Of a stretch of DNA of 64,000 nt, positions 27,101 to 62,282 are shown one piece after another; position 1 is the stretch's first letter; each line of letters begins with the position of its first letter. The notes beneath the pieces are model-generated. The model ran no database searches, was not told where the DNA came from, and saw only the letters and a list, made by a program, of their open reading frames with translations. The position numbers and the translations under genes are program-made. This DNA comes from Phorcus lineatus (taxonomy: Eukaryota > Mollusca > Gastropoda > Trochida > Trochidae). The stretch spans positions 39,294,520-39,358,519 of the forward strand of contig OV121089.1 in NCBI GenBank assembly GCA_921293015.1. The letters are read 5' to 3'.

Positions 27101-27470
27101 GCCTGTCCTGAAAAGCATCAGACTGAACCAGTTCATCATCAAATTCCTGGGGGATAGGTTCTAAAGCTGGACTTACTTTCAAACGAATTTTCAGATTTTT
27201 ACTCTCATCAAAACCTGTAAAACTCTCAGGACCAACATCAGACAGGTCAAAGTAAACCCTGGTGCTCTCAGAGATTAGAGTATCCTCATTCCGCTCCTCA
27301 ATATTATCTGCAGACAGAGACTGTTCCAGGCCTCGTTTCTTCAGGACTTTATGAACCCCAAGGAATGCGTCTGACATTGACCTCTCTAAGGTCAGTGTGG
27401 GGTCAAAGGTCTTGGCAGTCTTCTCTCCCGTTTTCCTCTTTGGGGGACCAGACTTATCCCCTGATTCCAT
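21155..27470 (-). CDS. SARM1: SARM1 copy B (ARM-SAM-SAM-TIR NAD+ hydrolase), complete
   Basis: Seven exons on the minus strand with GT/AG borders: 27470-26067, 25591-25415, 24389-24265, 23830-23595, 22839-22704, 22300-21989, 21374-21155. The sum is 2610 nt, 869 residues plus TAG. The ATG at 27470 follows an in-frame stop 13 bp upstream. Domains: basic/Ser-rich N-terminus (1-160), ARM (about 165-510), two SAM domains (about 512-650), TIR (about 675-820), Ser/His-rich tail. The ARM ligand-site positions are kept (W211, R218, E257, Q258, R265, K302), and the catalytic Glu of WVHKE is residue 757. Exons 2-4 have the same lengths as in copy A (177, 125, 236), and exon 6 (312 nt) equals A exons 6 plus 7 (190+122), so B lacks that intron. 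The two copies share very similar ARM segments, so they are paralogues in tail-to-tail orientation. An active NADase is predicted from the motifs. Confidence 0.96.
22945..23025 (+). mobile_element. tRNA-like SINE head or tRNA pseudogene in SARM1-B intron 4
   Basis: tggctcaatgggttgag fits an A box and its flank, and ctaggtttgatctc fits a B box. They are spaced as in a tRNA, with an anticodon-arm-like tctgactaccacctggaggtc between them. The acceptor stem does not pair well, so it is read as a tRNA-derived SINE fragment and not a functional tRNA. Confidence 0.6.
25863..25991. mobile_element. 129-bp palindromic MITE in SARM1-B intron 1
   Basis: Near-perfect inverted ends: cagggcctcctttcac at the left, gtgaaaggaggccctg at the right. 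The interior repeats aaccttaactaaggttaac and ends taaggtgatc on the reverse strand. It is the same family as about 7850-7965. There is no coding capacity and no clear target duplication. Confidence 0.8.
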
Positions 27471-30400
27471 ATTTGATGCAGATCAGCTAGCTTCTACTGC
27501 AGGGACTCTAGACCCTTCCTGTCATGATGGGAATATATCAGCACAACTTGTATCATTTTGGTCTCACAGCACCTGAAAGAGAAAATATTTGTGCCTTTGG
27601 TGTAACAATGCATCTAACAAATGTAAGGTTGCCATTGTCAGCTCTGAAAAGTTCTTTATCAACAAAGAAAATGAAAGCACAGTCCATCACAAACAAAGCA
27701 ACAGAATCATCTGGTTAACTATTGATAGTTTCAATAGTGTAGAGTTTTCTGCATTAGGATTAATTCAGAATGTCTCACGATGTAATTATACGAGTTTCCT
27801 TGAAATTAGGACTTGAGATTGCAAATTTACAAGCAAGGTCAAGTAACATGCTGCAGTGACTTTTAAAGAGGTCAAAGTCAAATCTATAAGCTTAATGTAG
27901 TCAGTTAACCTGGATCAAATTCAACAAGTGCCTTTCCATGTCCTGCAGATTTAGAGAAGTTAACATTAGCTCATTATGCAATGAGGCATTTTCAGGGCTC
28001 CTTTAATTCTAATGAATGAATATGTCATCACATATTTCAGTATCAAACCTAAGTCTTATGATAGTTAAGATGTTCTATTGACTTGTATACTTCTATAAGA
28101 GCAACAACATCTGGCCATGTCAAGATGAAAAAGCCTGTAATGAAAGATTTCAGCCCAACTTTACACCATGCCATTTCCTTATTAACCTCTTGAAAAACAA
28201 GTCTAGATTTTGTCTTGAATACCATTTCTCTGAGGTTTACCTTTCCAATACAAATAAAATATATGATTATAATGGTCTTACCTCTTAAAAAGAAATAACA
28301 TAAACTGATAAACTGGTTTTCTGATTGACTTAGTATCAGTCAAATTCTATTAGATTGTTATAATGAAGGTTGACACTTTTTCATAATTTGTGACCTGTAA
28401 TTTATTCTGGACTTGAAATTGATGAAAACCCTATGTCTTTTATCTCATATTCAGTGACTTCACTACTGAAAATATAGTGAAAAACACAAACATAAGGTGT
28501 TTGACCTTCTGAAGAAACACCATTTTGCACAAACATACATTTATTGGGGTAACTTTAAAGAAACAAAATTTCCCAAAAAATGTGCTACTGCACCCTTAAA
28601 TATCACAGTAAATTTTGAACATTGTTCAACAATGAAGTATTTAAATGGAATTATTTCAGTTATGTTCAACTTTGTCAAACAATATAGTCGTAAAGTATCA
28701 TTATCCACATACAACATTGTAAATCAATGTAGTGTCACAAAAAAGACTCATATTTAGTGCAATTGTTAGAAAAGGCTACAAGTGAAACATTGTAATATAG
28801 ACAGTAAATGAACCAACAATGTTACACAATTCAGGAATATAATGTCTCTCACAAAACTATTGTTTCACATATTATTACTGATGTAAGTTATATCTAAGGT
28901 AAAACAAGTACGTTGTTACATAACACACATAAATAAAATCTTCATCATCTCATTCCCAAAAACTTTTATGGTGTGTGTGTGTAATGTTGGTTTGACTAAA
29001 ATAATCACTGAATCTAGTTATTATTATTGCATTGTATAACTGTAATGTGACCTAAGAGTACAATGAGAAAAAAACATCTAAAACATAAAGTTACTTATCA
29101 ACAATACTAAAAAAATCAGCTTGGCTATACTTACAATATCTACAAAATGATAATCATAACAATAGTAGTTGAACTTCTGAAAGAAATAAGTCTAAGGGAG
29201 ACACGCCTACAGGTATTACTCATTGATTGTATTGACATTTGTTACAGTGATGTAACTATAGAACCCAGTCAATGAGGGAATGTTTTTTGTGTGTATTTAT
29301 TTGGCATTTAAAGTCCAAGAGATCATTCCTTTTATCAACTTTAATATCACCTCGTTACTAAGCTTTACGGTGTTCTTGATGAGTGAATAGAGCGCACGTT
29401 TTGCATTCGTTGTTAGGTAATTAAACAACGCCTGTCTAAAGACGTATGTAGGTCTCTGGCCTAGTAGCCCAGAAAGATATCTACTCCACCAACCTTGTTC
29501 GCTAGTTCCCGTAAATCGTGAAGATTACTCCCGTCGGTTCGATAATGCAAGTTTTACTACATGCAAACGAAGGTATAAAAATAAACCTCTGCATCAACTT
29601 CATGTCGTGACCCAGTGACACATGTCTTCTCTATTATTATTAATTGCGAAATCAGTCGTGATGGACTGATCTAAATTCGTTCCTTGGAGGCCATGACACT
29701 CAGTTATTTTGACATCACGGGTTGTCTCCCTTAGCTCAGTCGGTCAGCCAAGTGCACTTTCACAAGTAAAATAATTCTTCTAAAATTCTAGATAGTTTGT
29801 TGAATTGTAAGACAATACTACTATTCAGGAACGCAAACACATAAAAAACATCTTACGTGAAATTTTATGCGTCAACGTTTAACTGATTTACTAATTTTTC
29901 CTTTGATATTTGTCATTGCGTCATGAAATACGAAAACGCCCTTCTATACAAAACCCACTGTTACAAACTTTTCCTTATGACTTACATTTTCATATCGCTA
30001 AGCCAATATAATTCAAATGATTTTTTAATGTATTTCGAATGGTGATGTTAACACCGGTCTCTTATTCTACAACTATTTTAGATCTCGACCCAATGATTAT
30101 TTTAGCAATATTCGATCAACACATGCAGTTTTTCTATAATCATTAACCGTGAAATTTGCTAATTAAATATAGATTTTTCAGATACATGAAAATTAATTGA
30201 AATGATAATATCCAGAAAGTTGAGAAAATTAAAAACAACTATGGCAAGGAATTTTTTATAAACTGAAATATATTTTCTTTTAATTACCTCTCAGGATAAA
30301 CTCTCAAGTATAAACAGCTATAAGCAAAATGAACGTTTTATCCGTGTTTGTTTTTAAGTCGAGGTGTCTTTTTTCATAAAAGTACACAGTTTATTGACAG

Positions 30401-34369: not shown

Positions 34370-35857
34370 ATGGTCACACCGTAGGAGCGGTGAACGGCAG
34401 GCAATATTTAATAACTGAAAGTGAACTATTTGATGCGCGAGAGGTCGGAACGTTTTGTGTTTTAAGTGTAGGAACATTTTCAATATCTATATATTCATAA
34501 GCCAAACTTCCACCAAAATCCATGCTGTAAAATAAAAGGCCTTTATGCGTATTATCGCCAAATTTCTTTCTATTCCGTCCACAGACTAGCCTATAGGCCT
34601 GAAAAACAATGTCTTGCCGCGACAACTTGTCCGTCAAAATATTTGAATTTTACGAACTTTTAGGTATCTTTGATAAATAAAGAAAAATCTAAACACACCA
34701 ACATTAAGAATATTTATCAAACTAACTTCATACCAAATTTGAAGGCTCTTCGTTGCCGTTTTCGAGCTGTCATATTTGAAACAACACCACCATCAAACTC
34801 TTAGTGAACGATTTCATAACACAGGCACTATTAACTTGGTGAACGATTTCATTTTCTGGTAGTGAACGATTTGTTGTCAACGTTAACTCGTCATCTTATT
34901 TTATTTTGTAGTATTCTAGCTTATTTTCAGGTTTTTACACTTCAGATGCGCTGTATAAACGATAAAAATGCCACCATATCAGTGTTGCCATTGTTAGGAA
35001 CATTTTGAAAACTTTTGTGGAGTGATATATATCAGTGCATTGATAGTGATAGAGAAAAGAAGTTTATCATTAAAAATCGTTAATGTGACAGGCACACTTA
35101 CATATGTAGAAAAGATCTTAAATATGTCCCAATAGATACTGATAAAGATATTGTTGTCTCCGGGGAACCAGAGTAACTGGGGTTTTTTTTGTAAAAAAGG
35201 ATTCAGCATCGTCATGACCATCAAACAGAGGAAATAAAAATAATGAATTGATGGATGACAACAAAAAAGGCAACAAAAATTAACTTATAATGCTAAGTGA
35301 CATGCTTCCATCAATTCTGTCAGTTACAGAAACATGCCATGTCTGACATTTCCGCTTGAGAATATAGCTTTTCTTCTTTTCATTGGTGGTGTGGCGTTTT
35401 ACAGCTCAGTATGTACATGTCAAATTCAGTGCAGTGACACTGTGAAAATGTTTTGGTTAGCGGCATTTCCCATGCCAAATTCCTTCGATTGAGTCATTAG
35501 CGCGCCAATGTCCGGTTTTCGATCATAAACGACCACTTGAACCTGTTTATTGTCTCCCTACTGAACTAATCAGCAATAAGATGGTGATTTTCAGAGACAG
35601 ACATTAATTTACGATAAAATGTATATATAAGACAATTAAGTGTGACATATTTGGCGCAAACAACATACTCGGTGTTCCCTGACAACTCTCGACAGTACAA
35701 GCGAAAACATCCTTGCAAATGAGATAATACCAGGAATTATTGTAGACTCTCTAGATATCATACAGAAAGAGTATGGTGAGGAAACCAAACCTGGGTTTTA
35801 GGTGCCGCGTCTTAACAAAACTTGGTCTTACATTCTCAACCTTTAGATGACTTCAAT

Positions 35858-36118: not shown

Positions 36119-36898
36119 TCTCCATCTGCAAATAGTTTACGATTAATATCACTATGATAAAACAATAGTTAAGAATTCGAAGGAATGGCACTTTTTTATT
36201 CAAGTTAAAACTTTTGGATATGGAAGGCCCATAGGTAAGAAATATAATCACTATGCGGTAAACAAAAATGAGTAAATAGAATCAAGGTGATCAGGATTTA
36301 CATGATTGTCATAGGCCTATACATGATGTAAATACACTAATCATGGACGATACAGCGCCCCTTCTGACTAGAAAACGTATTGAACGGTGACATTAAAGCG
36401 TACACTACACAATTAACACTTTGACATTAAATAGTTCACCATGATGTTATGAAATCGTTCACTAAGAATTTGATGGTGTTGTGGTTTCAAACATGACAGC
36501 TCAAAAACGGCACAACGAAAAGCCGTCAAATTTGGTATGAAGATAGTTTGATAAATATTCTTAATGTTGGTGGGTTTAGATTTTTATTTATTTATCAAAG
36601 ATACCTAAAAGTTCGTAAAATTCAAATATTTTGACGGACAGTTTGTCGCGGCACGACATTGTTTTTCAGGCCTATAGGCTAGTCTGTAGACAGAATAGAA
36701 AGAAATTTGGAGATAATACGCATAAAGGCCTTTTATTTTACAGCATGGATTTTGGTGGAAGTGTGGCTTATAAATATATAGATATTGACAATTTTCCTAC
36801 ACTTAAAACACAAAACGTTCCGACCTCTCGCGCATCAAATAGTTCACTTTCAGTTATTAAATATTGCCTGCCGTTCACCGCTCCTACGGTGTGATGGT

Positions 36899-39409: not shown

Positions 39410-40372
39410 TTATGTATCAACAGGCAAGTGCAATGACTGCGTGGTCCCATCCATGTGAATTTTCATATGTTTCTGCAGCTCACATGCTCGAATAAATGTC
39501 TTATCACACTCACTACATTCAAAAGGTCTCTCACCAGTGTGCCCCATCATGTGTGTCTGCAGTGAACCTAACTGCGTGAATGATTTATTACATACAGTGC
39601 ACTTGTAAGGTCTTTCTCCAGTGTGAACTCTCATATGAGTTGTCAGGGTCCTTGCCACTGTGAAAGCTCTGCCGCATTCAGTGCATTTGTACGGTTTTTC
39701 ACCAGTGTGGATTCTCATGTGAGCCTGAAGGTTGCATGACCCTGTGAAGGTTTGTTCACAAACACTACATTTGTGTGGTCGTTCCCCAGTGTGGATTCTG
39801 ACATGTCTCTGCAGGTCTCCAGAGCGTGCAAAAGATTTACCACATTCATTGCAGTTGAAGGGTTTTTCCCCAGTGTGAATTCTTTTGTGTCTTTGCAGGT
39901 CACTAGACAATGTGAATGTTTTGCCACATTCAGTACACTTGAATGGTCTCTCTCCTGTATGAATTCTTATGTGCCTCTGCAAATCTATGGATCCTGCAAA
40001 TGCTTTACAACATATACTACACACATATGGTCTCTCCCCTGTGTGTATTGCTATATGTGTTTGCAGATTATCTAATCGGGAAAATGCTTTACAACAAACA
40101 TTACATTCGAAAGGTTTCTCTCCAGTATGAATTCTCATGTGTGATTGGAGGTTATTTGAGCGTGTAAATGATTTTCCACACAGATCACACACATATGGTC
40201 TCTCTCCGGTATGAATTCTCATGTGTGACCTCAAGTTATTTGATAATGTAAATGCTTTCCCACATTCGCTACACTTGAAGGGTCTCTCTCCAGTAGCAGT
40301 TTTCAACTGAACCTGTGTAGGTCTTGATTCTCTAAATGTCTTTTCATCGTCACTGTTATCTTTTGGTGTCAT
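39410..40372 (-). CDS. C2H2 zinc-finger protein with 10 fingers
   Basis: A single-exon open frame of 320 residues from the ATG at 40372 (the first ATG after an in-frame TGA) to TAA at 39410. After an acidic leader of about 30 residues come ten consecutive C-x2-C-x12-H-x3-H fingers joined by canonical TGE(R/K)P linkers; most carry FxxSxxLQxHMxxH-type helices. Short C-terminal tail. C2H2 arrays of this type bind DNA in the nucleus as transcription regulators, but no KRAB, SCAN, BTB or ZAD domain is visible, so the target and direction of regulation are unknown. The gene lies on the same strand as the 16-finger gene 5.4 kb upstream and shares finger wording with it (for example [14 protein letters not shown]), suggesting a tandem family. 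A non-coding 5' exon may exist further upstream. Confidence 0.9.
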
Positions 40373-41357
40373 AGTTTTTCTACTATGAGCTTTTCTCAAG
40401 TCATGGACTCAGGATACCTTTCTTACCTTTGAAACAATCTACCTTTGTTAATAGAATCCATTCTCCTTCAGTAGGGGTAAAATTGGAGGTAGATGCTTTT
40501 CCCTGTAAAAGCTAACTCCTGTACACATACTTATGCTGCCGTGCATTCTGTAAAAAAAAATAAAAATTAAGGAATCTAGTAATAACAAATACAACATGAA
40601 GTCAGCAATTAATCGTATTGTTGTGAAATTTTAAAAAATATTCAGAAATGAATAAAATTCATCAGAAGAATATAAACAGAATACTTTGTTCTTAATATAT
40701 TAATACTACACTGCCAAATGACATTGATAAAATACCTCGAACATTTAAAAAGAGGAATATAGAAAATACAAGAAAAATGCTTTATATTAATAATATCTTT
40801 ATCTCTTAGAGTTGACAAAACTTTCTCAAATCCAAGCAAATCTGGGCTGGTGTTAATCTTTATAATGCAATCATGTATTGACTTGATCGGCGCACTCACG
40901 ACGACCGCAGCACTAAGACATTTAATTAATGATGCAAAACCGGTTCGATGGGTCAATTGGAAAGGGAGAAATTGCAATCATGACATACTTGTGAGTGGCT
41001 CAGGATCGGCAGTTTTTTAGTTATAACATGCATACGCTCTCATATCGTTGAAATTAATTCAAGACGTTCGTGTTCATTATAAGCTAAAACTTACGTTCAG
41101 AAGAATCCCAAGTGGCTTCAACTGCAAAGTAGACAAAGGGACGTAACTCTTGAAATTCATCCTTAGATTGCGTAAGCACAAAACGGCAAAAGGAAAAAAC
41201 TGAAAACGCCAAAGTAATTAATTCTATCATTTTAGGCGATTGAGAAGTTTATAGTTTAAAAAAACCCCAACCATATGTATATCTAAAAATATATTTTTTT
41301 TAAAAACCGATAAAAATAATACAACCATATTATTTCTTTCAATGTTATTGTGGTACG

Positions 41358-45757: not shown

Positions 45758-47929
45758 TCAGACTTGCCATGACTGTGACAGTTCCCTAGCATGACTTTTC
45801 AAGTGTCGTTGCAAAGAAGACAACTGAGTGAACCTTCTGCCACACTCCTCACACTTGTATGGTTTTTCACCAGTGTGAGTTCTCATGTGTGCTGCCAGGT
45901 GACTTGCCTCGATGAATGTTTTACCACAATCACAACATGAAAATGGTCTCTCTCCAGTGTGGGTTCTCATGTGAATCTGGAGGTTATTTGACGCTGTATA
46001 TGCCTTACCACACTCGCTACACTTAAAGGGCTTCTCTCCCGAGTGAGTCTTCATGTGTTTGTGGAGAACATGTTGAAATGCAAATGATTTACCACACTCA
46101 CTACACTCGTGCGGCCTCTGGTCAGAGTGAACTCCCTTGTGAGCTTGCAAGCCATCCAATCGTGCAAAAGATTTACCACATTCACCACACTCGTATGGTT
46201 TCTCTCCTGTGTGAACTCTCATGTGAAACTTGAGACCCTGGGGGCGTGTAAATGTCTGCCCACATAAACTGCACAGGTAGGGTCTCTCTCCAGAATGAAT
46301 CCTCATGTGAGCATACAGGTTACTCTGCGCTGTGAAGCTCTTGTCACATTGGTTACACTTGTATGCCTTTTCACCAGTGTGAATTCTCATATGCATCTGC
46401 ATACCACTCAAATGTGCAAAAGGTTTCCCACACTCACTACACTGATATGGCATTTCTCCAGTATGAATTCTCATATGAGACTTGAGGTTACTTGACCCAG
46501 CAAATGACCTGCCACATTCAGTACACTTGTATGGCTTCTCTCCAGTGTGTAGTCTCATGTGATACTGCAGATGACAAAAGACAGAGAATGACTTCTTGCA
46601 CTCGCTACATTCATATGGTTTCTCTCCAGTGTGAACCCGCATGTGGAGCTCCAGATTGTAGGCTCCTGTGAATGATTTACCACATTCACTGCACTGGTAT
46701 GGTTTGATACGTGCATCACTTCCCAAGGGGGAAATATGACACTTCATATGTGTCTGTAAAATATTTGACCTCGTAAATGTCTTGCCACATTCATTGCATG
46801 CAAATGGTCTCTCGCCGGTATGTGTTCTCAAGTGCGACTTCAAGTTATTGGATTCTCGAAATGCTTTGTCACATTCTGTACATTTGTATGGTCTTTCTCC
46901 AGTGTGTATTCTCATGTGTATCTGCAAGTTACTTGATGCAGTGTATCCCTTTCCACACTCATTACACACATAGGGTCTCTCCCCAGTGTGATTTCTCATA
47001 TGTATCTTTAAATTGAATGAGCGTGTAAATGATTGACCACAAACACTACACACAAATGGTCTCTCCCCAGTATGGCTTCTCATGTGTATCTGCAGGTTAC
47101 TTGAAAGTTTAAAGGTTTTACCACACTCTTTACACCGATGTGGCTTCTCATCAGAATGAGGTCCAACGTGAGGTTGAAGGAGGCCATATCCTGCAAATGT
47201 TGTGTTACACAGTCTATCTGTGTTCGGTCCCACAGTTTCAATATCCTGTAAAAGATTTGCTTTTTGTAATGTATTATAATATTGACTAAAGTCTGGTAAA
47301 CTATCATCATATTCATTTGAGTCTGCTGTTTTCTCATATTCACTTGATTCTTGAATTGTTTTATGATTATCAATTTCAGATTCTGGGAATGTAATATCAC
47401 ATTCAGTTGATTCTATAAATGTTTGATTATTTCGACTTGGTTCTAGCAAAGTTTGATTATTTTCACTTTGTTCTATAAATGTTTCATCCTTTCTTCTTGA
47501 CTCTGGAAATGTTTGATTATTTTCACATGGTTCTAGAAAAGCTAAACCATTTTCATTTGATTCTGGAAATGTTTTATCAATTTCACTTGATTCTGGTAGT
47601 GTTTTACTACTTTCAATAGACTCGTATGATCTTTCCTCAATATTATCAGAATATTTTTGGGACTTCAAAAATTTTGATCCTGAAAATTCTTCATCACATT
47701 TTCTTGTTTCTTGTAATGTTTTTTCATATTCACTGCTTGTCTGTATCTTCTCTTCAGTTTCATTATGTAACTGCAAAACATCTGCTTCTCCAAAGTCTTC
47801 ATCACTTTCACTTGAATCTAGTAAAGGTTCACATCGCATGTGGAGTTTCTCTCCAGCATGAATCTGTGCCTTGAAATCACTTGAATCTGTAAACGTTTCA
47901 GGATACTCACTGCAGTGGAATGGGGTCAT
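45758..47929 (-). CDS. C2H2 zinc-finger protein with 16 fingers and an acidic decapeptide-repeat leader
   Basis: A single-exon open frame of 723 residues from the ATG at 47929 to TGA at 45758; in-frame stops lie upstream. The C-terminal two thirds (about 265-715) hold 16 intact C2H2 fingers with TGEKP-type linkers. One enlarged linker (about 11 extra residues, near 398-411) separates fingers 1-5 from 6-16. Before them are two degenerate fingers, one at the extreme N-terminus (C-S-E-Y in place of C-x2-C) and one near 240-262. Residues about 110-195 are a roughly ten-residue acidic repeat of the form (E/R)NNQTF(P/I)ES. No KRAB, BTB or ZAD domain is visible. It is presumably a nuclear DNA-binding regulator with unknown target. 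It is in tandem with the 10-finger gene on the same strand. Confidence 0.9.
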
Positions 47930-48207
47930 TGTCTGAATAGTCAAATCTTTACAGAGTCTCCTTCACACACACAATCATGACCTGATTGATGAATAACATG
48001 TATCCACTATGAACTATTCTTCTACAGAGCACAGGGCTTTCCTTTAGTCCCCCTCGTCTGTGATGACATGGTGTTGATGTTGAAAAAGCTAGACCTTCTG
48101 TTGAGTGTTACAGGTGCTTTAATACCTTCTATACACAAAAATGAGAGGGTGTTGTTGTTTATCAGATGAGAGCTTCTGTAAGAAATTACAGGTGATTTAC
48201 TACCTTC
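47930..48207 (-). other. Probable 5' UTR exon of the 16-finger gene with an internal duplication
   Basis: A strong minus-strand acceptor (ttcttttcag, ending at 48208) opens an exon that runs without a further splice signal into the ATG at 47929. Its first 185 nt form an open frame to a stop at 48022 containing two diverged copies of EG(S/I)K(S/A)PV...RSS...NTxS (24-26 codons each). It is best read as 5' UTR with a small upstream frame; a separate small protein exon is the alternative. Confidence 0.4.
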
Positions 48208-51189: not shown

Positions 51190-51585
51190 TCAAATGAATA
51201 TCTCATCTCGTGAAAAAGAAAATAATATATTTACACTCGTGGCAACGCGTGGAGGACCTCGAACCATCTGGCTATCTACGTCTTTCTTCATCAGTCCAAC
51301 AGGGGGAGCATGGAATGTCTGTCCGTCAACGTCTCTCTTCATCAGTCCAACAGGGGAACCATGAAATGTCTGTCCGTCAATGTCTCTCTTCATCAGTCCA
51401 ACAGGGGGGCCATGGGATGTCTGTCCGTCAATGTCTCTCTTCATTAGACCAACAGGGGAACCATGAAATGTCTGTCCGTCAATGTCTCTCTTCATCAGTC
51501 CAACAGGGGGAGCATGGAATGTCTGTCCGTCAATGTCTCTCTTTATCAGTCCAACAGGAGGACCATGAAATATCTGTCCGTCACT
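51190..51585 (-). CDS. Repeat exon N3: six 17-residue units ending GLMKR, secreted-peptide precursor type (partial)
   Basis: A minus-strand open frame starting right after a possible acceptor (catggtag|agtgac) and ending in TGA at 51190. It encodes six 51-bp units of the form D-I-D-G-Q-T-F-H-G-S-P-V-G-L-M-K-R; the last unit ends in KK. A non-repeated tail of about 30 residues follows. The GGA(C/T)TGATGAAGAGAG stretch before each cleavage-like site is shared with the last exon of N2, so homology is likely. Cleavage at the dibasic sites would release near-identical acidic peptides. No signal-peptide exon is visible between 51586 and 52971. The exon could be an alternative 3' exon of N1 (the phase agrees), a third gene with an unseen exon 1, or a pseudogene. 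The plus strand is also open because of the repeat. Confidence 0.55.
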   Translation of the reverse strand, partial: SDGQIFHGPPVGLIKRDIDGQTFHAPPVGLMKRDIDGQTFHGSPVGLMKRDIDGQTSHGPPVGLMKRDIDGQTFHGSPVGLMKRDVDGQTFHAPPVGLMKKDVDSQMVRGPPRVATSVNILFSFSRDEIFI

Positions 51586-52754
51586 CTACCATGAAAGTGC
51601 TGGATACTCGATTATGATTGGCTGTTTTGTCCGACTCAGAGGGTATCAATTCACGATTGAAGTTGCTCTGTTTACCCGAAATCAGTTTACAATGTATTAA
51701 TACATACATTGACTTCCGACTATCCGACTGGTAACTTCAGAGTCGATATTCCGCTTGCAAGTGGGATTAATCTCTTTCCAAAAGGAATTAACCGTAATTG
51801 TGTTCGTGTGTTTACACGGAGAGAGAAAATTGTTTTAATTTTATGTCGTATTTTGTACAATATAAGAAGTTTGAGTGAAAAATCATCGTAAACTAAGCTT
51901 TCCGCTACTGGGCATGCAGAAGCGAATACCTTCGAATACGGCAACAAAACAATGACGTCATTTCGCGAGCGCTTCTGACGTCATAAACCCTATTACGACG
52001 TCATAGAGTGGTCTACTGTTAGAGTCATCCATTTGCGTCATGAGGGGGGGTGGGGGGTGTCGCGGTCTTTGTTTGCTATCAAAACAAGATAAAAGGCTTT
52101 TTAAACGATTCGATACTTACATTTGTATCACATACTAGTACGAAACCATTTCGTGAACACGCAGTATTAGGTTTAACTTTGATAACGGTTTAATTTTAGT
52201 TCAATACTATGACGCAAAATCCCCGATGCTGACGAGTTCATGTTTGTCTCCAGAAGTCGGAACATTTTACACTGTGCATTTCGCTATGAAAAAGAGTTCA
52301 GCACTAAAATCGTCATGGTAGAATGGGGATAAACCTAGTGTGTTTGAAAATCAGAGACATGTTATACTGGATTGATAGCGAGTAAATTTTAAATTGTAAC
52401 CTCACGCTATGTTTATCTCCTAACTGGACCTCTTTTTGTATATCGCCCGTAGATACAGTGGCAAGTGTAAACATTTCGGTAAAGCAGTTGTATCTTATGT
52501 TTTGACCAATCATAATTATAACTTGTTTGTAACAGGCACAAGACTGTACCTGCAAAGACCTTTATTTGGCAATTTTGCAAATACCAGAAACACGAAGATA
52601 CAGATTAACAGGGTTACCAAGAAACAAAAATGGCTTATTTAAATTCTTACCATGCAAGAAAATATGATTGTTAGAATACTCAAACAGCATTCACGTCATG
52701 TTTTATGACAATTTTACCTGTTTATCATTGAAAATCCAGCTATCTAGTTTGTTA
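51586..52754. other. Interval between N3 and N1
   Basis: It holds the CRE-like cluster (51953-52003), a G-rich stretch (about 52045-52060) and a TTTATT (52561-52566) that could serve as a minus-strand poly(A) signal for N1. No exon resembling the N1/N2 exons 1 or 2 was found. Confidence 0.4.
51953..52003. promoter_or_regulatory. Cluster of three CRE-like sites upstream of the N3 exon
   Basis: tgacgtca at 51953-51960 and 51976-51983, and cgacgtca at 51996-52003, with a further tgcgtca at 52034-52040. Two are perfect CREB/ATF palindromes and all lie within 90 bp. The cluster is upstream of N3 on the minus strand and could mark a cAMP-responsive promoter; no TATA box or start site was assigned. 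Confidence 0.45.
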
Positions 52755-52839
52755 ATGAATGCTACGTGAGTGAGTGAGTGAGTTATTGTTTAACGCCGCT
52801 TGGGCAATATTTCAGCCATTGGCGGCGATGAATGCTACG
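52755..52839 (-). mobile_element. 61-bp truncated retroposon tail with 12-bp target duplication
   Basis: The 12-mer atgaatgctacg occurs at 52755-52766 and again at 52828-52839. Between them are 61 bp that, on the minus strand, read ...aagcggcgttaaac...taactcactcactcactca. This is the 3' tail of a retroposon ending in a (tcac)n microsatellite. The same tail, on the plus strand, is at 62295-62357. Confidence 0.85.
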
Positions 52840-52971
52840 AGCCCCTGGTTTGATTTCAAGAAAAAAACGTTAGTAAAGTGAATCACTTATTGGTATAAAA
52901 GAAAAATAACAAACAAGTAATGTGTTTTGTATGTAATGGGATTTTCTTTCCAAAGACTATCTGCCATTACA

Positions 52972-54568
52972 CTACAAAAAGTCAGACAGGGCAGTTGCAA
53001 CCTCCTCGACTTCTTTCTTCTCCAAACCATAACCATATGGTTGCTCGGTATCAACTTCTTTCTTCACTAGGCCAGAGTTGAAATTTATCTTGCTTTCCCC
53101 GCTTCTCTTCTCTAATCCATTTCCTGGCATATAATGTATCTCGTTTGCACCGTCTATCTTTTCAAATCCATTTGGATTATTTATCATGTTGTCATCTCCT
53201 CTCTTCGTCAATCCTGGAGTTACAACCTGTTGCTCGGAAGAAATCTTCATTAATAATTATAACTTCTAGGTGTTACAAAATACGCTTTCAAACGACATAA
53301 CATAGATAATTATTTTAAGATTATTGTATAATGTCCATTTAGATAATTTCGATGAATTATTAAAACAATAAATAACCCCTCAATACATATTTGAACAAAA
53401 ATGTTCTGAGTTAATAACATACGTTCTTGACTGATTATCTTTATCCCTTTAGTGTGCATTATAACTATGTTCTTGAAAATCAGTGCAGTGAGAAAACATA
53501 AATGGTTTAGCAAAAGCATATATATTTTTTTATTGTACCGTGATTTTTCGTGAATTTATTATCCACATACACAAGTTTAATTGATTTTCAATGTGTCTAT
53601 TACGAGAACTGTATTTCAAATTAAATTCGTCGACTTACCAGACTCATGTCCATATAACTGTTCTCCAACGCATCCATGGAAACTGAAATAAAACAAAGAA
53701 AATTCAAGTTGATTTGCTTCAGGTAGAATCGATGATTTAAAGAATAAAACTATTTTTTAAATATAATCATATCATGGAAAAAATCAATGTAAAAATTATA
53801 TTGCTGTGCATATAGAAACGCATCCTCTCCTCACGCTGGATATTCAAGTAATGTTTTTCCACGTAACCTCTGTAAAAGTTAATCAGTTGGAAGACAGACA
53901 AACGAGTGTAGAGAGCCGCGGTTACCAACTGTGCATTCGCTCAGTTCTCGTCTTGTAGAGAAGACTGGAGTTCCTTCACCCGTGCGACATAATCATATAT
54001 TTACCAACACAAAATGTCAGCCATCGTTGTGAAATATTTATTTGTTTAGACATAAAGATCACATTCGCGTTCCAAATTTTCAGTGCAAAAGGTTTTGAAA
54101 GAATCGCGGAACCTGGCCAACTATTAACACTTAGAAATAGATAACGAAGGGACGAAGGAACAAGAGGTGGGAACAAAACGAGAAAAAGACTGCATACCTC
54201 CCCTCCCCCGCTGCAATTGCAAGTGAGAGATGTCACCACCATCCCCCTACCCCACTCTCAACGACGGAGAGTGCAAGATCAGGGGGCGTATTTTGGTGTC
54301 AGACCACAACGCCAAAGTTCATTAACACATAGGCGAAGGTTATCTGCTAACAACACGATAAAAATCACCAATAATAAGTCATTTGTTAATGCAGGGTGAT
54401 TTACCTATGTTCCCCCATTGTATGTATGTATTTGTGAATGACCATCTCATGTAAATTATTATTAGATCTGTTGTACAGTAGATAAAAACATCTAAGAAAC
54501 TTACCAGCACAAGCCTGCATCAACAAAACAAATATTCCATAAGACATGTTGACAAAATGTTCACACAT
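52972..54568 (-). CDS. N1: small secreted precursor with dibasic-flanked acidic peptides
   Basis: Three exons with consensus splice sites: 54568-54505, 53682-53639 (44 nt), 53226-52972 (TAG). The product is 120 residues, or 113 if the second ATG (54547) is used; the start is uncertain because a TATA box lies only about 32 bp upstream of the first ATG. Exon 1 encodes a hydrophobic signal peptide (core YGIFVLLMQACA, AxA-type cleavage), exon 2 an acidic spacer (VSMDALENSYMDMSL). Exon 3 encodes segments separated by TKR, EKR, VKK and EKK, most ending in G-L-(T/V/E) before the basic pair. The mature part has no cysteine. This is the layout of a neuropeptide or peptide-hormone precursor: secretion, then proprotein-convertase cleavage. 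No Gly amidation donor is present. N2, in the same orientation about 6 kb upstream, is a paralogue. I do not recognise the family. Confidence 0.8.
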
Positions 54569-54599
54569 ACTGCAATGGGTTTGTGAAAATAACACGCCC

Positions 54600-54607
54600 T
54601 TTATAAA
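54600..54607 (-). promoter_or_regulatory. TATA box of N1
   Basis: TTTATAAA followed on the minus strand by gggcgtgttat, a stretch shared with N2. It lies about 32 bp before the first ATG, giving a very short 5' UTR. Confidence 0.6.
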
Positions 54608-55150
54608 GAGATTTCATTTCTTAAAAAATGACATATAATCAACGCATATGGTTTCAACATTTGAAAATACATGTGCATGCTAATTAGTTTGCGAATTTTA
54701 GCACATGTTAATGATATGTTTGCATTCGTTATTAAATGAAATTCGTGGTAAATCAATGGATCAACAGTTCGAAAAAATTATAATTTCTGAAAACGATTTA
54801 TTACATGTTTCAGTCTATTTCACGCTACTGGTTCCATCATCAGCATATTCTTAACGAAGTTTAAACCAAAGTTTAGATAAAGTTCTGATCAGTATTTGTG
54901 TGTGATTTGTATTTACATTATTTTTAAGATTGAAACCAGGCACGCCATGATGACAACACGATTCGCAACTACTGTATGGGAAGTAGATGTTACATTGACC
55001 AAATACCAGTCGCTAATTTCAGTTAGTGACACTTTCCACATGATTAGTTCGTCTCAAGAGTCATTATAAGTGTATATCTTAAATATTCCTGTTCACTTCA
55101 AACAGTTAAACCATAAGCTCTGTATTCGAGCAACGAGAGCCGAATCGCTT

Positions 55151-55175
55151 TGCGCATGCGTAGTGAACAGGAAGT
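55151..55175 (+). promoter_or_regulatory. NRF-1-like plus ETS-like sites, possible housekeeping promoter
   Basis: tgcgcatgcg (55151-55160, NRF-1 palindrome) is followed by aacaggaagt (55166-55175, ETS core GGAA) and then an ATG at 55187 in an open frame of 48 codons. A donor-like aaag|gtaggt lies near 55345. No downstream exon could be recognised, so the gene, if any, is unidentified. Confidence 0.35.
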
Positions 55176-58100
55176 TTCCGTAAAGCATGGAGGGGTCGTC
55201 TTCGCATGGCCTTCCCTTCTCTCAGAGGAACGATAAGTTGGATTTGACAGCGGATTTATATTCAGGAAAGATTTTACTTACCGATAGATGCTGTCACGGA
55301 TACATGGCAAATTTTACAAAGCTGAAAAGTTAGTCGAAATAAAGGTAGGTCAAGCGCAGGGAATCTTTGCGCACTTGCGCTTGACTCTGAAATAGGACCG
55401 GTATGCCCGTTGTAGGTAGATGATGTAAACAAACCTACGACGGTCATATATTTGGCCTAGGGTCACAGGGGCCACACGTTTAAAGCCTATTTAAGGCAAA
55501 AGACCTAGAAAGCTGAGACCTTGTGTATATACTCCTTTGCTGATGAGGATTCAAACTTATTGATTTTATGACCCTGTGGTCCCTTAAAATGGCCAGAGGA
55601 ACCATGCCCTAAAATCCGGTAAGAGCAAAGGCAATTGGTCTTGAAAGTCTGTACCTGTGTACAGACTCGATACCTGAAGGGGATTCTAATTCGTCGTTGA
55701 TTACCATAAGACCTCTAATAAGGGATACAGGCACCATGCGCTTAACACCTACTTTCAACTTCATTTCCAGATGAGGCCTAGAAAATAAAACTGTGTCGAC
55801 AGGCTCCTTAGCTAATGGAAATTCTTATTTAATGGTGACCATAGGACACCTTCATCTGTTTTCTTCTCTTCTTTTATAAATAAAATGCCTAGAAAGCATA
55901 TATCACGTGTACAGCGTCCTCAGCTGACGTTGATTATAATAAATGGATTTGGCGATCTTGTAGCAGATCATTTTGTGACACTGTGACCATTTACAAAACA
56001 AATTAGCCGAAATTAGATTGCCTGATGAGCGACAGAACCCAAGGCTCTATTTTGTATTCATAAAAGTTCATCATTATTTATTTTACCGTGGGGAAGCCAT
56101 CATTTTAGTTTCGAAATGATTGTTACGAAACATCTGTTTTCTTAAAGATAAATATATATTCTTTCCACCAAATGGTAAGTATCCACTTGCATCTGAGAAT
56201 GAGAAATGTAAGAGACCACCCAACAAAATTCGAAACTCTTACGTTCAGGTGATACTTTAAGGCACAAGAACTGTCTTCTCCAATACCTTTACATGTATAT
56301 ATGTCTACTCTATGGAATGTTATTAATTTAGTATTGTCATATATACCAACTACAGGTCCGACGTCCGTTGTAGTCTATGCATTCTCAAAGAGAGCTCATG
56401 TTCATCAAAACCGAGATTGGTGAATCAATGTAACTTTAGAAAGTTTTGAAGGAACAGCTTGGCTCTTTCTCTATTCTTGCGTCTACGCCTTCTCAGAACT
56501 GAATCGCCGCTAATAAATGATATAATGCCCAAGCGGAACTAACGATAAATCACTCAATCATTCAGAATTGTATTGGCCAAGTTTTCTTGTTATTGCTCCT
56601 GTGTTTTTCGTATCGGTCTAGTTTTCCAAATCATATGGTCTAAGCCGTAGATATTGCATAAGTGCTACACAACTGATCGTTGATAAATAACAATAAATAA
56701 GGTACAATGGAAACTTATCTAACTCCTCTAGATATTCGTTATCTTGGAGCTGTAACTTACAATCTTAGAGAAACAATCTAATATTTTGTCATGCATATCA
56801 TGATATTTCTGTACATAAACTATTTCACGATTTTCATATTATTTTCGAATATTGACTATAATTTTCTTCCCTTTGAGTTTGTAAGATACAATATCATTTC
56901 TTCCCGGACATTTTTTCGAAGATTGCCTTTAATATCATTGTTACTTAACTTAGCCTCCAAGTGTAATTTGCTTCAAAACTTTCAAACATTTGTTTTAAAC
57001 AAGTATGCAATATATTAAACATATATACTTATGTTTTCATATACTTATATGTTTTCGGTATTTTCTATGATGAATTGCCAAGGAGGGATCCAGTTTAGTA
57101 AATTTGATAAAATATAATATCACTGTTTCACGTTAAACTGTCGTTTTGCTTGCATGTAAATATACTGCATATTGACGTTCATTCACTATTACAAGTGAAA
57201 ATAAAAAACTGTGGTGTTTGACATTTTGGCCCTCGATGACCAACAGGAGGTGCAAAAGCATTGCAATGCAAATGGTAGTTATAAATTAGTCGTCACGTCT
57301 GATTTGAATAATCAATGATATTGAACCCTGTTTTCCCTTTGTGATTATGCATCGAAACTGTCACAAATTACATGATTTATACAAGAATGCAACTGAATGC
57401 CACATTAAAATGCATGGCATTTCAATAACACACCCCTTCAACAGCCAACACTCTAATGAGGGAAAGGGATCGGCATCAGTCATTTTGATTGCATATAAGT
57501 ATACCACAAATGACGTTCATTCACGGTTACAAGATCAAAGCTTGTACTCGTCGTCCATATGAAAACATTGTTTAGAAGCAATAAGTCAACACCTTATAGG
57601 TCCTTTGCAAGAACGTGCATTGTCTATGTGTTGTTGACATAACATAAGTGGAAGTTAGAATGTAAATTAGAGTGAACCATTCTCCTTGGTGTATTATAAT
57701 TTCTGTCATAAGAATTCTTTCCATTACCACGATTAAGTGACTTTGAGTATGTTAAAGTTGTTGAAGTTGCAAACGTTGATCGTGGCATAGTGAAGAAATG
57801 TTAGCGGCTGGGTATTATCATATATAGCTCAAAGTTTACGCATATTGACATTATGGTTATGTGGAATCATGGTGTTGATAAAAAAAAACCTCTAAACCCG
57901 CCATGCAAAATATTAGTGATATTGCTTACAAAAGCAGATATAAAGATTAAAGAAATTTTATATCTGAGATTAAAGCTATTAAGATGATATTTTAAAATGC
58001 ATTTTGGGAAGCAACCTGAGCTGCATCTTTATAAGAATCTTTAAAAATATAAGATTGTGGCACGTATAAGGCCAAACAGAAGTCATAATAGATACCTGAG

Positions 58101-58794
58101 GTCACCTTGAACAAGGATTATTGAAGTGAATAACTTTGTACTGTATTTAACATGTTTTATTTTCTGTCAGATTTTTTGGTTTGAAATAGTGTTGGTTAAT
58201 TAAGTTTGAAAGTCTTCAGGTCATTTAATTTTCAGTTTTAAAGGGAAGTAACTGCTGTATGACATAGCTACAGTAGGGTTCAGTGGACACAGGGTATTGG
58301 ACTAAGGGACATATATAACTGGTGTTTTTTTGATGGCTAGTTAGGCCAAAAGCACAAGGTATGTGAGTGGAGGTCATGTACTGCCTGTTTGATGATGAAG
58401 TTGGTGGTTTCTCCACATATTAAAGCTGGTTCCTACACAGAATTTGTAAGTAGTATGCACATACATCATGTACAATATAAAATTAGTATAAATTATTGTT
58501 TATTCTGCCATTTATAAGCTCATGTTGGTCTCAGATAAAAATGTAAACAAATGCTCAATTCTTGCTTAAGTTTTCTCCAACAAGTATTTAAACCTATGTG
58601 AAAGTGTATTTTACAGTAACCTTAATGCAACCTTTGTAAAGCCTGGTTTTTTCTGTTGTGGCTTTCAGCTTGAACCCGTTGAGAAGTAAGGAAATAAATT
58701 ACGGTGTACAAGAAAAGGAATCGTTTGTTGACTTTAACCTAACAAACTTAATAAATATAAAACATAAATAACCAACAGTTCCAGAAGTGGTCTG

Positions 58795-58800
58795 TTTATT
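58795..58800 (-). terminator. Poly(A) signal of N2
   Basis: TTTATT on the plus strand is AATAAA on the minus strand, 50 nt after the N2 stop codon, a typical spacing for a short 3' UTR. Confidence 0.6.
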
Positions 58801-58849
58801 CAGTATTATCCTCCATGATGTTTATCTCCAAAGACATTCTTCCTTTATA

Positions 58850-60630
58850 CTAAGGCTCGAACATATCAGGCAGGGCAGTTGCCTCCTCCCTGACTTCTCT
58901 CTCCTCCAATTCATAACTATAGGGTTGCTCGTCGTCAACTCCTTTTTTCACTAGACCACCGTCATAATTCATCTTGCTCTCATCGCCTCTCTTCATCAAT
59001 CCAGAGACATAATTTTGCTGATTTTCTTCCGTTCGCTTTGTCAATCCAGGATTATCTACTTTATCACCGCCTCTCTTCGTCAATCCAGCGGTTACAACCT
59101 GTTTTTGAAAAAAAACAACTTCATAAATAATAATAACATGTTAATGGAACAAATTTTAACTTTCATATGACATATCTGAGGTTATTACATTCATTTTTAA
59201 TGTGACCCCTTAATTTATATTTGAACAAATCTTTGGTTGGTATAGTTACACCTGCAAATGCAATAATAAAAAGCCTCATATAAATGGCGTTAAATCAATT
59301 TTACAAGAAACTTACACCATTAGTAAGCAGCGTCTCTACACTGATTGTAGATACGAGAAATTCATTTCTTTCTGGTCTTCATGCCACAGCCTTTTTACAT
59401 GATATTTTTTCTTGCCACTAACATGCAATATTGAAATGAACATGAAAAACTGAACTGTATTATCGATTTGACACCTATATCTATGTACTCTGTATATCAT
59501 GTGTGTATATTATATGTACTTAATTATATGTAAAGATTGACTATCTTTATCACTTGTATGTGTATTATAATTATGTTCTTTGAAATCTACTCTTACTGCT
59601 AGTATCTTAGCGCATGCAGTTAACGCATAATTTTTCATGAATATATTATCCCATTTAAAAGTTTAATCAATTGTCAAAATGTTGCGTTTTACATGATCTG
59701 TGTTGCAAATCAAAATCGTTGACTTACCAGACTCATGTCCATATAATTGTTCTCAAAAGCATCCATGGAAACTTAAAAGAAATAAAAACAATTCAAGTTG
59801 ATTTGTTTCAGGTAGAATCCAGGATTTCAAGATAATAACTATTTTGGTATTTAATCATATCACGGGGGAAAATACAAATACTATAATGCTGTGCCCATAG
59901 GAACACATTCTTTCCTTACAGTGAATACCGAACTCATGTTTTCCTACGTAACCTCTGTAAAAGTTAAGCAGTTTAAGACAGACAAATGCAGAAAGCCGCT
60001 GTTACAAATTTTTGGATTCGGTCAGTTCTCGTCTTGTAGAGGAGACTGGGGTTCCTTCACCGATATAATCATATATCTACCAACACAGAATGTCAGCCTT
60101 CTTTGAAAAAAATATCTAATTGTATAGACATAAAGATCACATTCGGGTTCCAAATTTTTATTGCCAAATGTTTTGAAAGAATCACGTGGCCAACTTTTAG
60201 TAGAGGAAATATATAACGAAGAGACGAAGGAAAGTGCAAGATAAGGGGACGTATATTGGTGCCAGCTCACACCGCCAAAGTTCATCAATACATAGGCGCG
60301 GGAACTGGGATACCAAAACAGAGATTATAACGCATAGCTTCAATACCTGCTTGACGATTGATAAATTTTGCCACCCCCATCTCCCGCTTACAAGTGAGAG
60401 ATCTGCCCTCAACACAATAAGCGTAAACAAAAAAAGTCATTTTGTTGATGCGGCTGATTTACCTATGTTCCCCCGTTGTATATATGTGATTGTGAATGAC
60501 TTATCACACGTAAATTAATACAAGATCTGTAGCACAGTAGATAAAAACAACATCTGAGAAACTTACCAGCACAAGCCAGCATCAACAAAACAATTCTTCC
60601 ATAAGACATGTTGACAAAATGTTCACACAT
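58850..60630 (-). CDS. N2: small secreted precursor with dibasic-flanked acidic peptides, paralogue of N1
   Basis: Exons 60630-60567, 59771-59728 (44 nt) and 59098-58850 (TAG), with the same phases as N1. The product is 118 residues (111 from the second ATG, 60609). The signal peptide core is YGRIVLLMLACA, and exon 2 gives VSMDAFENNYMDMSL, 13 of 15 identical to N1. Exon 3 carries segments ending GLT-KR (twice), GLM-KR and GLV-KK. A final segment SYELEERE has lost the dibasic site that N1 keeps (GLEKKE). Expected products are secreted acidic peptides of roughly 11-22 residues. The exon 3 difference from N1 includes loss and gain of whole peptide units, as often seen in peptide precursors. Poly(A) signal at 58795. 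The function is unknown, and the repeated, cysteine-free design argues against a disulfide-rich toxin. Confidence 0.8.
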
Positions 60631-60661
60631 ACTACAATGGGTTTGTGATAATAACACGCCC

Positions 60662-60672
60662 TTTAATAAATA
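60662..60672 (-). promoter_or_regulatory. TATA-like element of N2
   Basis: On the minus strand it reads tatttattaaag followed by ggcgtgttat, at nearly the same distance from the first ATG as the N1 TATA box. It is weaker than TATAAA. Confidence 0.4.
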
Positions 60673-62282
60673 CAAAGAGCTTTCATTTCTTAAAAATTAC
60701 CTTGAATCAACGCATTTTTTCAACTTTTGAAAATACGTTTATCTATTCAAAGTTGGTAATCTTTCTCCTCATGCTTATGAGTTGGTGAAGTGCAGCACAC
60801 ATTAAATATATGTTTTCAAGCGTTTCAAAATGAAATTCGTGGTTAATCAATAGATCAGCAGTTAGAAATTATTAAAATTTCTGAAAACGTTTCTTTACAT
60901 TTTTCTGTCTATGTTTCATTGTTCCACTCTGCTGGTTCCATCATCAGTTTGTTCTTAATAAAGTGTAAATTGTAGTTTAAAGAAAGTCCTAATCAGTATT
61001 TGTGTATGAATTGTAATTATATTTGTTTCAAAATTCAAACCATGCATACCATGATAACAACATGATTCGCAACAACTTTATAAGAAGTAGATTTCACATT
61101 TACTAATTATCAATCCTTATTTCATTTACTGTGATAATGACACTTTCAACATGATTAGCTGTGTCACAAGTGAAGTCATAAATAAAAGTGTCCCATGATT
61201 GTCACAAGAGTCATTTTAAATGTTGATATCTTAAGTATTCCTGTTCGAGAAAACTGTTCCCCCAAGCCGGGCGAGAAATTGTGATTTCACCAGATATGGT
61301 ATAGTTGTCAAGAATAGCCAAATAAAACTGTGGCTTAAGCAAGATGACGTAGACACACTAGCATTAAAAAATTACCAAAATTTAAGAAGCATAACACCTT
61401 TACATACCTTGTACATACGTTATGTTTCGGTTTATGGCTAGATTGATGAAGCCATTTTGCTGAAAAATATCTTTGTTGCTTAATTCCTTGTGAGAATTAA
61501 TTATTTAAAGAGGTATTGAAAATATCATTCACCAACTTATGATACTTTTTATTTTTTGTCTGTTCAACAACACAAGAGACGATGAGAACATTTTCCATCA
61601 ACGTTTTGGAAGCAATGTTTTAAATTAAATTTCAAAGTTGATAAACAATGAACAAAATGTTAAAGAGCCACTCCGTGATTTTCATAACATATTATTTACC
61701 TTTGATACGAAGCTAATTGTCATATATGTGGTGATATAAAATCTAAACGTCTGAACGTTTCATGTCGAAAAGACATATATCTATGACAAATACTGGGTTT
61801 CCATGAAAATCTAGAAACAACCTCTTCAATGCACAGAGGTGTAGATATCACGTCCAATATACATGGATACTGGTTACGTAACCTTACAAACACTATCAAC
61901 TCCTAACTGCCCTCCTGGCTGCTTTAGATAAGTCTCCAAAATTACGTGTGACTATTTGACGCGCGCCACTGTCCAGTTTTCGATCATAATTGCAACGTTC
62001 TACCTTCATGTTGTCACTGTACAAAACAAATTAGCTTTAAAATGTTCCTTTTAGGTAACAGTCGATACTTTGCGATCAAATGACACCATTGATGCGCATG
62101 CGTGAAGGTGACAAGTCACTGATTTGAGCTCTCTTACAATTTTGCAATTTTTTAAAAACATTTGGTCTACCGAGTCCCTCTTGAACGTAAATCTGGATTG
62201 TGATCACCATGGGCATTACGATAGATGCTTGGCGAGCAAGGATCGGCTGTTTCACCCCACCCCGTGGACACAGAAATATTGA
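60673..62282. other. N2 upstream flank and sequence before the LINE
   Basis: 60673-61248 is homologous to the N1 upstream flank. 61249-62282 has no supported gene. An NRF-1-like tgcgcatgcg occurs at 62093-62102 and could belong to the LINE 5' UTR or be chance. Confidence 0.4.

Follow-up and report, generated by a model that had tools for sequence, protein, structure and literature searches.

Which kind of product do the repeated genes at one locus of Phorcus lineatus encode, and do they belong to a known family of molluscan peptides? The locus lies in a 64-kb window (C15:39294520-39358519), in which a preliminary description, made from the DNA letters alone, had noticed two genes, here called N1 and N2, and proposed a small, possibly lineage-restricted family of secreted peptide precursors in tandem. 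We scanned the window together with the 100 kb to its right (164 kb, with coordinates continuing past the window end) and searched the whole genome (958 Mb, 74 contigs); copy counts from the whole-genome searches are lower bounds. N1, N2 and two further copies, N4 and N5, form one cluster of what is possibly a lineage-restricted precursor family. With moderate confidence, we read them from their sequence as tandem prohormone-type precursors, whose peptides would serve as extracellular messengers, like FCAP-2 or pedal peptides. A diverged terminal exon, N3, lies beside N1.

Gene structure and genomic distribution

Both genes of the window lie on the minus strand (N1, 54547-52972; N2, 60609-58850). 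In N1, exon 1 (54547-54505, 43 nt, GT donor) encodes the predicted signal peptide MSYGIFVLLMQACA, exon 2 (53682-53639, 44 nt, AG acceptor and GT donor, ending in phase 0) encodes a conserved linker, and exon 3 (53226-52972) encodes cassettes ending in G-L-x before KR or KK, followed by the stop codon. The same parts are present in N2, where exon 1 (60609-60567, 43 nt) encodes the predicted signal peptide MSYGRIVLLMLACA, exon 2 (59771-59728, 44 nt) the linker, and exon 3 (59098-58850) the G-L-x cassettes before KR or KK and the stop. All four introns of the two genes have GT-AG borders; the phase is 1 at the end of exon 1 and 0 at the end of exon 2, and there is no internal stop. The three-exon structure with a 44-nt exon and identical phases, as first described, is thus confirmed by the coordinates, the introns and the open frames.

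Two further intact copies follow on the same strand, within 14 kb of the right end of the window: N4 (exons at 71878-71836, 71096-71053 and 70673-69750) and N5 (77728-77686, 76545-76502 and 76163-75729). The lengths of the first two exons (43 and 44 nt) and the phases are identical in the four genes, and all frames are unbroken. A poly(A) signal AATAAA follows the stop codon at about 50 nt in N2 (58795..58800, minus strand), 35 nt in N4 and 47 nt in N5.

The search of the whole genome with the N2 exon-3 protein gave 11 matches from nine candidates, all inside N1, N2, N4 and N5, and the DNA search with the N2 promoter and signal exon returned four places, corresponding to the same four genes. 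The genes form a single cluster, and copies elsewhere in the genome were not found. The tandem family proposed from the window, with its signal-type exons, dibasic sites and coding constraint, therefore stands, and it is larger than had been noted, with N4 and N5 beyond the window.

Translation start and signal peptide

In N1 and N2, an in-frame ATG located 21 nt further upstream (MCEHFVN-MSYG) was considered as the start codon and rejected: because N4 and N5 have no ATG at this place, the start is probably MSYG. Signal peptides were assessed by core hydrophobicity only, which was 2.36 in N1, 3.23 in N2, 3.48 in N4 and 3.01 in N5; among 1368 background ATG frames of the 164 kb, 8.7% reach 2.2, 4.7% reach 2.5 and 0.7% reach 3.2. 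A small-x-small site, (A/V)CA↓V, is present in all four predicted signal peptides.

Cassettes, cleavage sites and amidation

The terminal exons contain a total of 28 dibasic sites (four each in N1 and N2, six in N5 and 14 in N4). G-[LFI]-x precedes 26 of them (4 in N1, 4 in N2, 12 in N4 and 6 in N5), against a shuffle expectation of 0.02-0.13 per gene. The preliminary description had reported G-L-(T/M/V/E) before KR or KK in N1 and N2, and we found that all eight sites, four per gene, follow G-L-x, with x being T, E, V or M. This is far above shuffles: when each of the two terminal exons was shuffled 5000 times, at most one G-L-x dibasic site per gene was obtained, versus four observed.

Of the 32 units with 15 residues, 27 retain GL and 21 the dibasic pair (the N1 17-mer, the N2 13-mer, the N4 9-mer, the four 9-residue first blocks and the tails are left out of the unit statistics). 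Over the 31 distinct units, the ratio of nonsynonymous to synonymous differences (pN/pS) was 0.21 at G11, L12 and R15, a triple chosen post hoc from the alignment, and this was the lowest value of the 455 column triples. A reduced set of 12 units, no two of them more than 80% identical, gave 0.26 for the triple versus 0.82 for the other positions, and the triple was among the lowest 4 of 455. A constraint on the peptide end and the cutting site fits equally well a C-terminal receptor-binding end and a protease with a preference for Leu at P4.

The peptides had also been described as lacking an amidation Gly. This holds for N1, N2, N3 and N5, and fails for N4, which carries three amidation-type GLGKR sites, the only ones in the cluster; overall, a Gly before the dibasic pair is missing at 25 of the 28 sites. 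GLG and GLE codons are one base apart.

Coding constraint

Over the six gene pairs, identity was 79-93% in exon 1 and 82-96% in exon 2, versus 58-71% in intron 1 and 60-72% in intron 2; the 120 nt ahead of the genes were 72-90% identical. Indels had a length multiple of three in 20/20 cases in exon 3, in 37/133 in introns and in 12/37 in the 120-nt flanks; the pairs are non-independent in these comparisons, and a good part of the exon indels correspond to whole cassettes. The ratio of nonsynonymous to synonymous substitution rates (dN/dS) over the six pairs ranged from 0.20 to 1.15 in exons 1-2 and from 0.38 to 0.80 in the C-terminal block. On the basis of the dN/dS values, the coding constraint is moderate, and single pairs are compatible with neutrality.

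Predicted processing and role of the products

Short precursors of the prohormone-type class have a signal peptide and several dibasic sites. Dibasic sites and a predicted signal peptide are both found here, and from them we infer secretion, cleavage and a messenger role. The four tandem copies of one gene would encode a secreted, Cys-poor precursor, in which exon 1 would provide a signal peptide cut near (A/V)CA↓V, exon 2 a short conserved linker, and exon 3 a series of cassettes, mostly of 15 residues and in most cases ending in G-L-x-K-R or K-K. In the secretory pathway, cleavage by prohormone convertases would take place behind the dibasic pair, which a carboxypeptidase would then trim. 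The products would be mostly unamidated, many of 11-15 residues, with a G-L-x end (predicted free peptides include SGESKINYDGGLE, TEENQQNYVSGLM, GDESKMNYDGGLV and DIDGQTFHAPPVGLM), and three N4 cassettes would give amidated peptides ending in ...YGL, such as the predicted SGESEPNHKYGL. Cassette number would shift by in-frame gain or loss of 45-bp units.

Several observations weigh against this interpretation. N1 has lost its poly(A) signal, with no AATAAA for about 400 nt past the stop, and its signal core is the weakest of the four (2.36, where 8.7% of the background reach 2.2), with a Gln inside it. Exon 3 is 69.5-75.9% identical over the six pairs, barely above the introns, and dN/dS between N1 and N2 is 0.63 (bootstrap 0.35-1.20; 0.62 in exon 3). 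Among the 32 fifteen-residue units, 11 have a single basic residue instead of the dibasic pair. Finally, pN/pS is 0.96 at the other 12 positions of the units, so that the cassette bodies look close to neutral, which would be odd if the whole peptide mattered.

The near-neutral bodies and the wide dN/dS bootstrap, together with the lost poly(A) signal of N1 and the lack of a signal exon in N3, are what would be expected of decaying or non-expressed gene copies from which no peptide is made. The four intact frames, the conserved splice sites, the presence of in-frame indels only and the synonymous-biased change at G-L..R argue against such decay, which we consider very improbable.

The main rival to a messenger role is a gland-secreted one, in which the same secreted, dibasic-cut precursor would be the product of a gland (mucus, salivary, hypobranchial, gonad or egg coat) and its repeat peptides would serve as bulk, pheromone or defence peptides. 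Fast-changing bodies between a conserved signal exon and a conserved cutting motif are coherent with such an exocrine product, as are the variable cassette number and the tandem gene copies, and a constraint limited to G-L..R is explained equally well by a protease site and by a receptor-binding end. On the other hand, the C-terminal G-L-x and the multi-copy arrangement without amidation correspond to those of neuropeptide precursors found in this genome. We consider the exocrine role possible, if somewhat doubtful, and keep extracellular messengers as the preferred reading.

Comparison with known molluscan neuropeptides

The motif had been judged unlike the known molluscan neuropeptides. In agreement with this, no convincing match was found in Pfam (weak single-member matches down to E 0.003 were taken as chance), among PDB sequences (best E 0.34) or in the protein collection, where one search scored the 8000 candidates with most shared words; a search for the cassette strings in paper texts, supplements not covered, found no report of these cassettes. 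The judgement does not extend to the peptide ends, because unamidated G-L-x and G-F-x ends are known in FCAP-2 and pedal peptides. In the scallop Patinopecten yessoensis, FCAP-2 peptides with unamidated GSGLI, GSGLV and GMGLI ends, including MLDRVGMGLI and AIDRIGSGLV, were confirmed by mass spectrometry (PMC5996578), and abalone pedal peptides ending in G-F-x were detected in ganglia by the same technique (PMC6523705). Since scallop FCAP-2 and pedal peptides share this layout, the unamidated G-L-x end is an established molluscan neuropeptide form. No G-L-x end is present in those of the unassigned abalone ganglionic peptides (MAP-1 to MAP-8) that appear in Table 3 of the source (PMC6523705).

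Genes of the buccalin, LASGLI-amide, pedal-peptide and FCAP-2-like types are present elsewhere in the P. lineatus genome, in support of a molluscan setting for the cluster. We compared N cassettes with these families by counting the permutations that reach the observed score, first freely and then with G-L-x kept; the query units were 18 distinct ones versus abalone pedal peptide A, buccalin and LASGLI, 14+4 versus the own-genome pedal peptides and FCAP-2-like units, and four N3 units. The cassettes of FCAP-2, LASGLI and pedal peptides have a common x-hydrophobic-D start.

The FCAP-2-like frame, so named on the basis of a sequence match and not of an annotation, lies on the minus strand at C32:39886775-39887506 (inside C32:39885500-39889500) and includes units such as SIDSLGSGLIKR, DLDYLGMGLIKR and PIDTLGSGFIKKR, which match the scallop FCAP-2 peptides. 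It is given as a frame of 378 residues (...LGSGFIKKR); the LASGLI-amide gene, likewise on C32, is about 28 kb away. FCAP-2 and N cassettes are both multi-copy, dibasic-separated and unamidated, with a G-(L/F)-x end. The narrower FCAP-2 ending, unamidated G-L/F-(I/V), agrees with the N genes in part: they show G-L-x without amidation at most sites, but with x being E, T, M or D besides V. In contrast, FCAP-2 cassettes are shorter, have an x-(I/L)-D-x-(L/I/V)-G core, often end in -IKKR and lie on another chromosome, whereas N cassettes are acidic, mostly of 15 residues, and show only a partial form of this core, x-V-D-T/S, where the last cassette begins. Versus the own-genome FCAP-2-like units, the score was reached by 127 of 5000 permutations for N3 (1062 with G-L-x kept) and by 333 for the mid cassettes (2703). 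For the last cassette (EVDTKQRYGYGLE type, four genes) the count was 11/5000, and 28/5000 with the last three columns kept, in a C-terminal test chosen after seeing the data and the best of many comparisons. The full FCAP-2 core is missing from N, and with the last three columns kept the mid cassettes and N3 do no better than permutations.

The pedal-peptide gene of the same genome (C29:43070255-43071109) encodes SFDSISAGSGLNGFMKR, PFDRIDGSSGFSGFEKR and further peptides in which the residue ahead of KR or KK varies (A, M, E, D or V), and its repeat exon starts in phase 0. No candidate signal exon was found for it in 13 kb. Pedal peptide/orcokinin-type precursors (PMC5656890) resemble N in being multi-copy and unamidated, with G-hydrophobic-x before KR or KK, while their x-F-D-S-I cassette start is missing from N. 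Versus abalone pedal peptide A, 33/500 permutations reached the score (172/500 with G-L-x kept); versus the own-genome pedal peptides, the counts out of 5000, free and with G-L-x kept, were 399 and 1472 for N3, 222 and 987 for the last cassette, and 447 and 2987 for the mid cassettes. Pedal-peptide homology was rejected on these negative tests, the G-hydrophobic-x end being the only common trait.

Buccalin, of the allatostatin A type, is also multi-copy with G-L before the cleavage site, as in the three GLGKR of N4, and buccalin peptides are described as L-amides from GLGKR or -LGKR (PMC8514136). Unlike the three-exon N genes, the buccalin gene of this genome has repeats and signal in one open frame. 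The permutation counts were 37/500, and 15/500 with G-L-x kept; N5 scored 68 versus buccalin, above all 300 shuffles (maximum 58), and N3 was not above shuffles. We rejected buccalin membership, as an amidation Gly is present at 3/28 sites, all in N4, and the genome's own buccalin gene is elsewhere. LASGLI/V-amide precursors, listed as mollusc-restricted (PMC6425005), share with N multi-copy cassettes ending in ...S-G-L-x, and are described with amidated GLIGKR and a P-F-D-x-L-A core (PMC8514136, PMC6425005). The genome's own gene is elsewhere (C32:39858893-39859642), the N cassettes mostly have no amidation Gly and are without P-F-D-x-L-A-S-G-L-I/V-amide, and permutations reached the score in 117/500 cases (454/500 with G-L-x kept), so that LASGLI membership was rejected as well.

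Instead of a separate family, the cluster could be a divergent branch of the FCAP-2 or pedal peptide/orcokinin family. The same G-(L/F)-x-KR/KK end without amidation Gly, and a last cassette that fits FCAP-2-like units better than permutations, would be coherent with this. However, the mid units and N3 fit neither FCAP-2-like units nor the own-genome pedal peptides, and the single positive signal was the strongest out of many comparisons. None of the places listed when the genome was searched with buccalin/LASGLI and pedal-peptide queries fell within the N1-N5 cluster. We regard this origin as unlikely. The FCAP-2 signal of the last cassette and the buccalin signal, as the best of many comparisons, are leads and not proof; homology to FCAP-2 or pedal peptides is mostly negative by these tests, and the N cassettes may still descend from them.

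The diverged terminal exon N3

N3 (51190..51585, minus strand, frame 51585-51190) contains six 51-bp units of the DIDGQTFHAPPVGLMKR type, all six carrying G-L-(M/I) before KR or KK. Frames with at least two G-L-x-K-[RK] motifs are limited to N1-N5 in the 164 kb scanned. The N3 tail, GLMKKDVDS...VAT, resembles the GLVKKEVDS...VAT of the other genes, a similarity reached by 0, 1, 0 and 1 of 2000 shuffles for N1, N2, N4 and N5, in an alignment picked after seeing the data. The pN/pS of five N3 units was 0.40, and in the window N3 matches N1 exon 3 by tblastn with an E of only 0.002.

No exon 1 or exon 2 for N3 was found in the 164 kb, where other matches to the exon-2 model reached at most 10 bits, versus 75-80 in the four genes; nor was a signal exon found elsewhere, as the genome-wide DNA search with the N2 promoter and signal exon gave only the four genes. 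N3 as a complete, independent gene was thus rejected. At high score N3 is unique in the genome. The 28 weaker matches (E 6.8e-8 or weaker, 21-40% identity) comprise 20 with stops and eight without. Two of these loci were inspected and discarded, one being an unrelated repeat without stops and the other having no 100-residue frame; the remaining seven stop-free matches all have E 9e-4 or weaker. RNA folding at the N3 edge gave nothing notable (z 1.84). Between N1 and N3 there is a 409-bp repeat (52000-52408), which recurs at about 40 further genomic positions with 91-95% identity.

An in-frame stop lies just upstream of N3, and candidate phase-0 acceptors are TAG↓AGT and, later, CAG↓ATA; because of the stop, TAG↓AGT is the earliest possible entry point for splicing. 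A phase-0 entry is compatible with N1 exon 2, and N1 may use N3 as a distal alternative last exon; that N3 is an orphan relic is as likely. The missing signal exon, the phase-0 acceptors, the tail similar to other terminal exons and the lost poly(A) signal of N1 suggest a bolder scenario, which we hold to be improbable: a new peptide-messenger family of one mollusc lineage, with selection only on G-L-x-K-R and drifting bodies and cassette number, in which exons 1 and 2 of N1 would serve two last exons, its own and N3, and so switch between peptide sets.

Genomic surroundings

Elsewhere in the window, SAM domains are encoded at 3313-3699 (plus strand) and 23578-23928 (minus), a TIR domain at 21937-22326 (minus) and an ARM-like frame at 26022-27482 (minus). 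Inverted repeats of 72-76% identity connect the two sides, 3313-4555 and 21937-27482, which we take to be two SARM1-like genes in opposite orientation. Two single-frame C2H2 zinc-finger genes lie at 39410-40408 and 45758-47962 (minus), and an inverted repeat pair at 34374-34821 and 36445-36894 (93-96% identity, arms of about 450 bp, 1.6-kb spacer) has a similar open frame in each arm. Long frames at 62609-66617 (plus), between N2 and N4 and extending into the flank, resemble a retroelement. In the right flank, two open frames about 6.7 kb apart (82121-83806 and 88828-90513) have the same first 120 residues shown, and represent either a recent duplication or an assembly duplicate.

Significance

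If expressed, the cluster would add to the molluscan peptide inventory a precursor family that these searches did not find in print. The four tandem copies, with 4, 4, 6 and 14 dibasic sites, provide a within-genome series for the gain and loss of cassettes, cleavage sites and amidation sites. If the family is lineage-restricted, the receptor used by its peptides (FCAP, pedal-peptide or new) would directly test the origin of new peptide signals.

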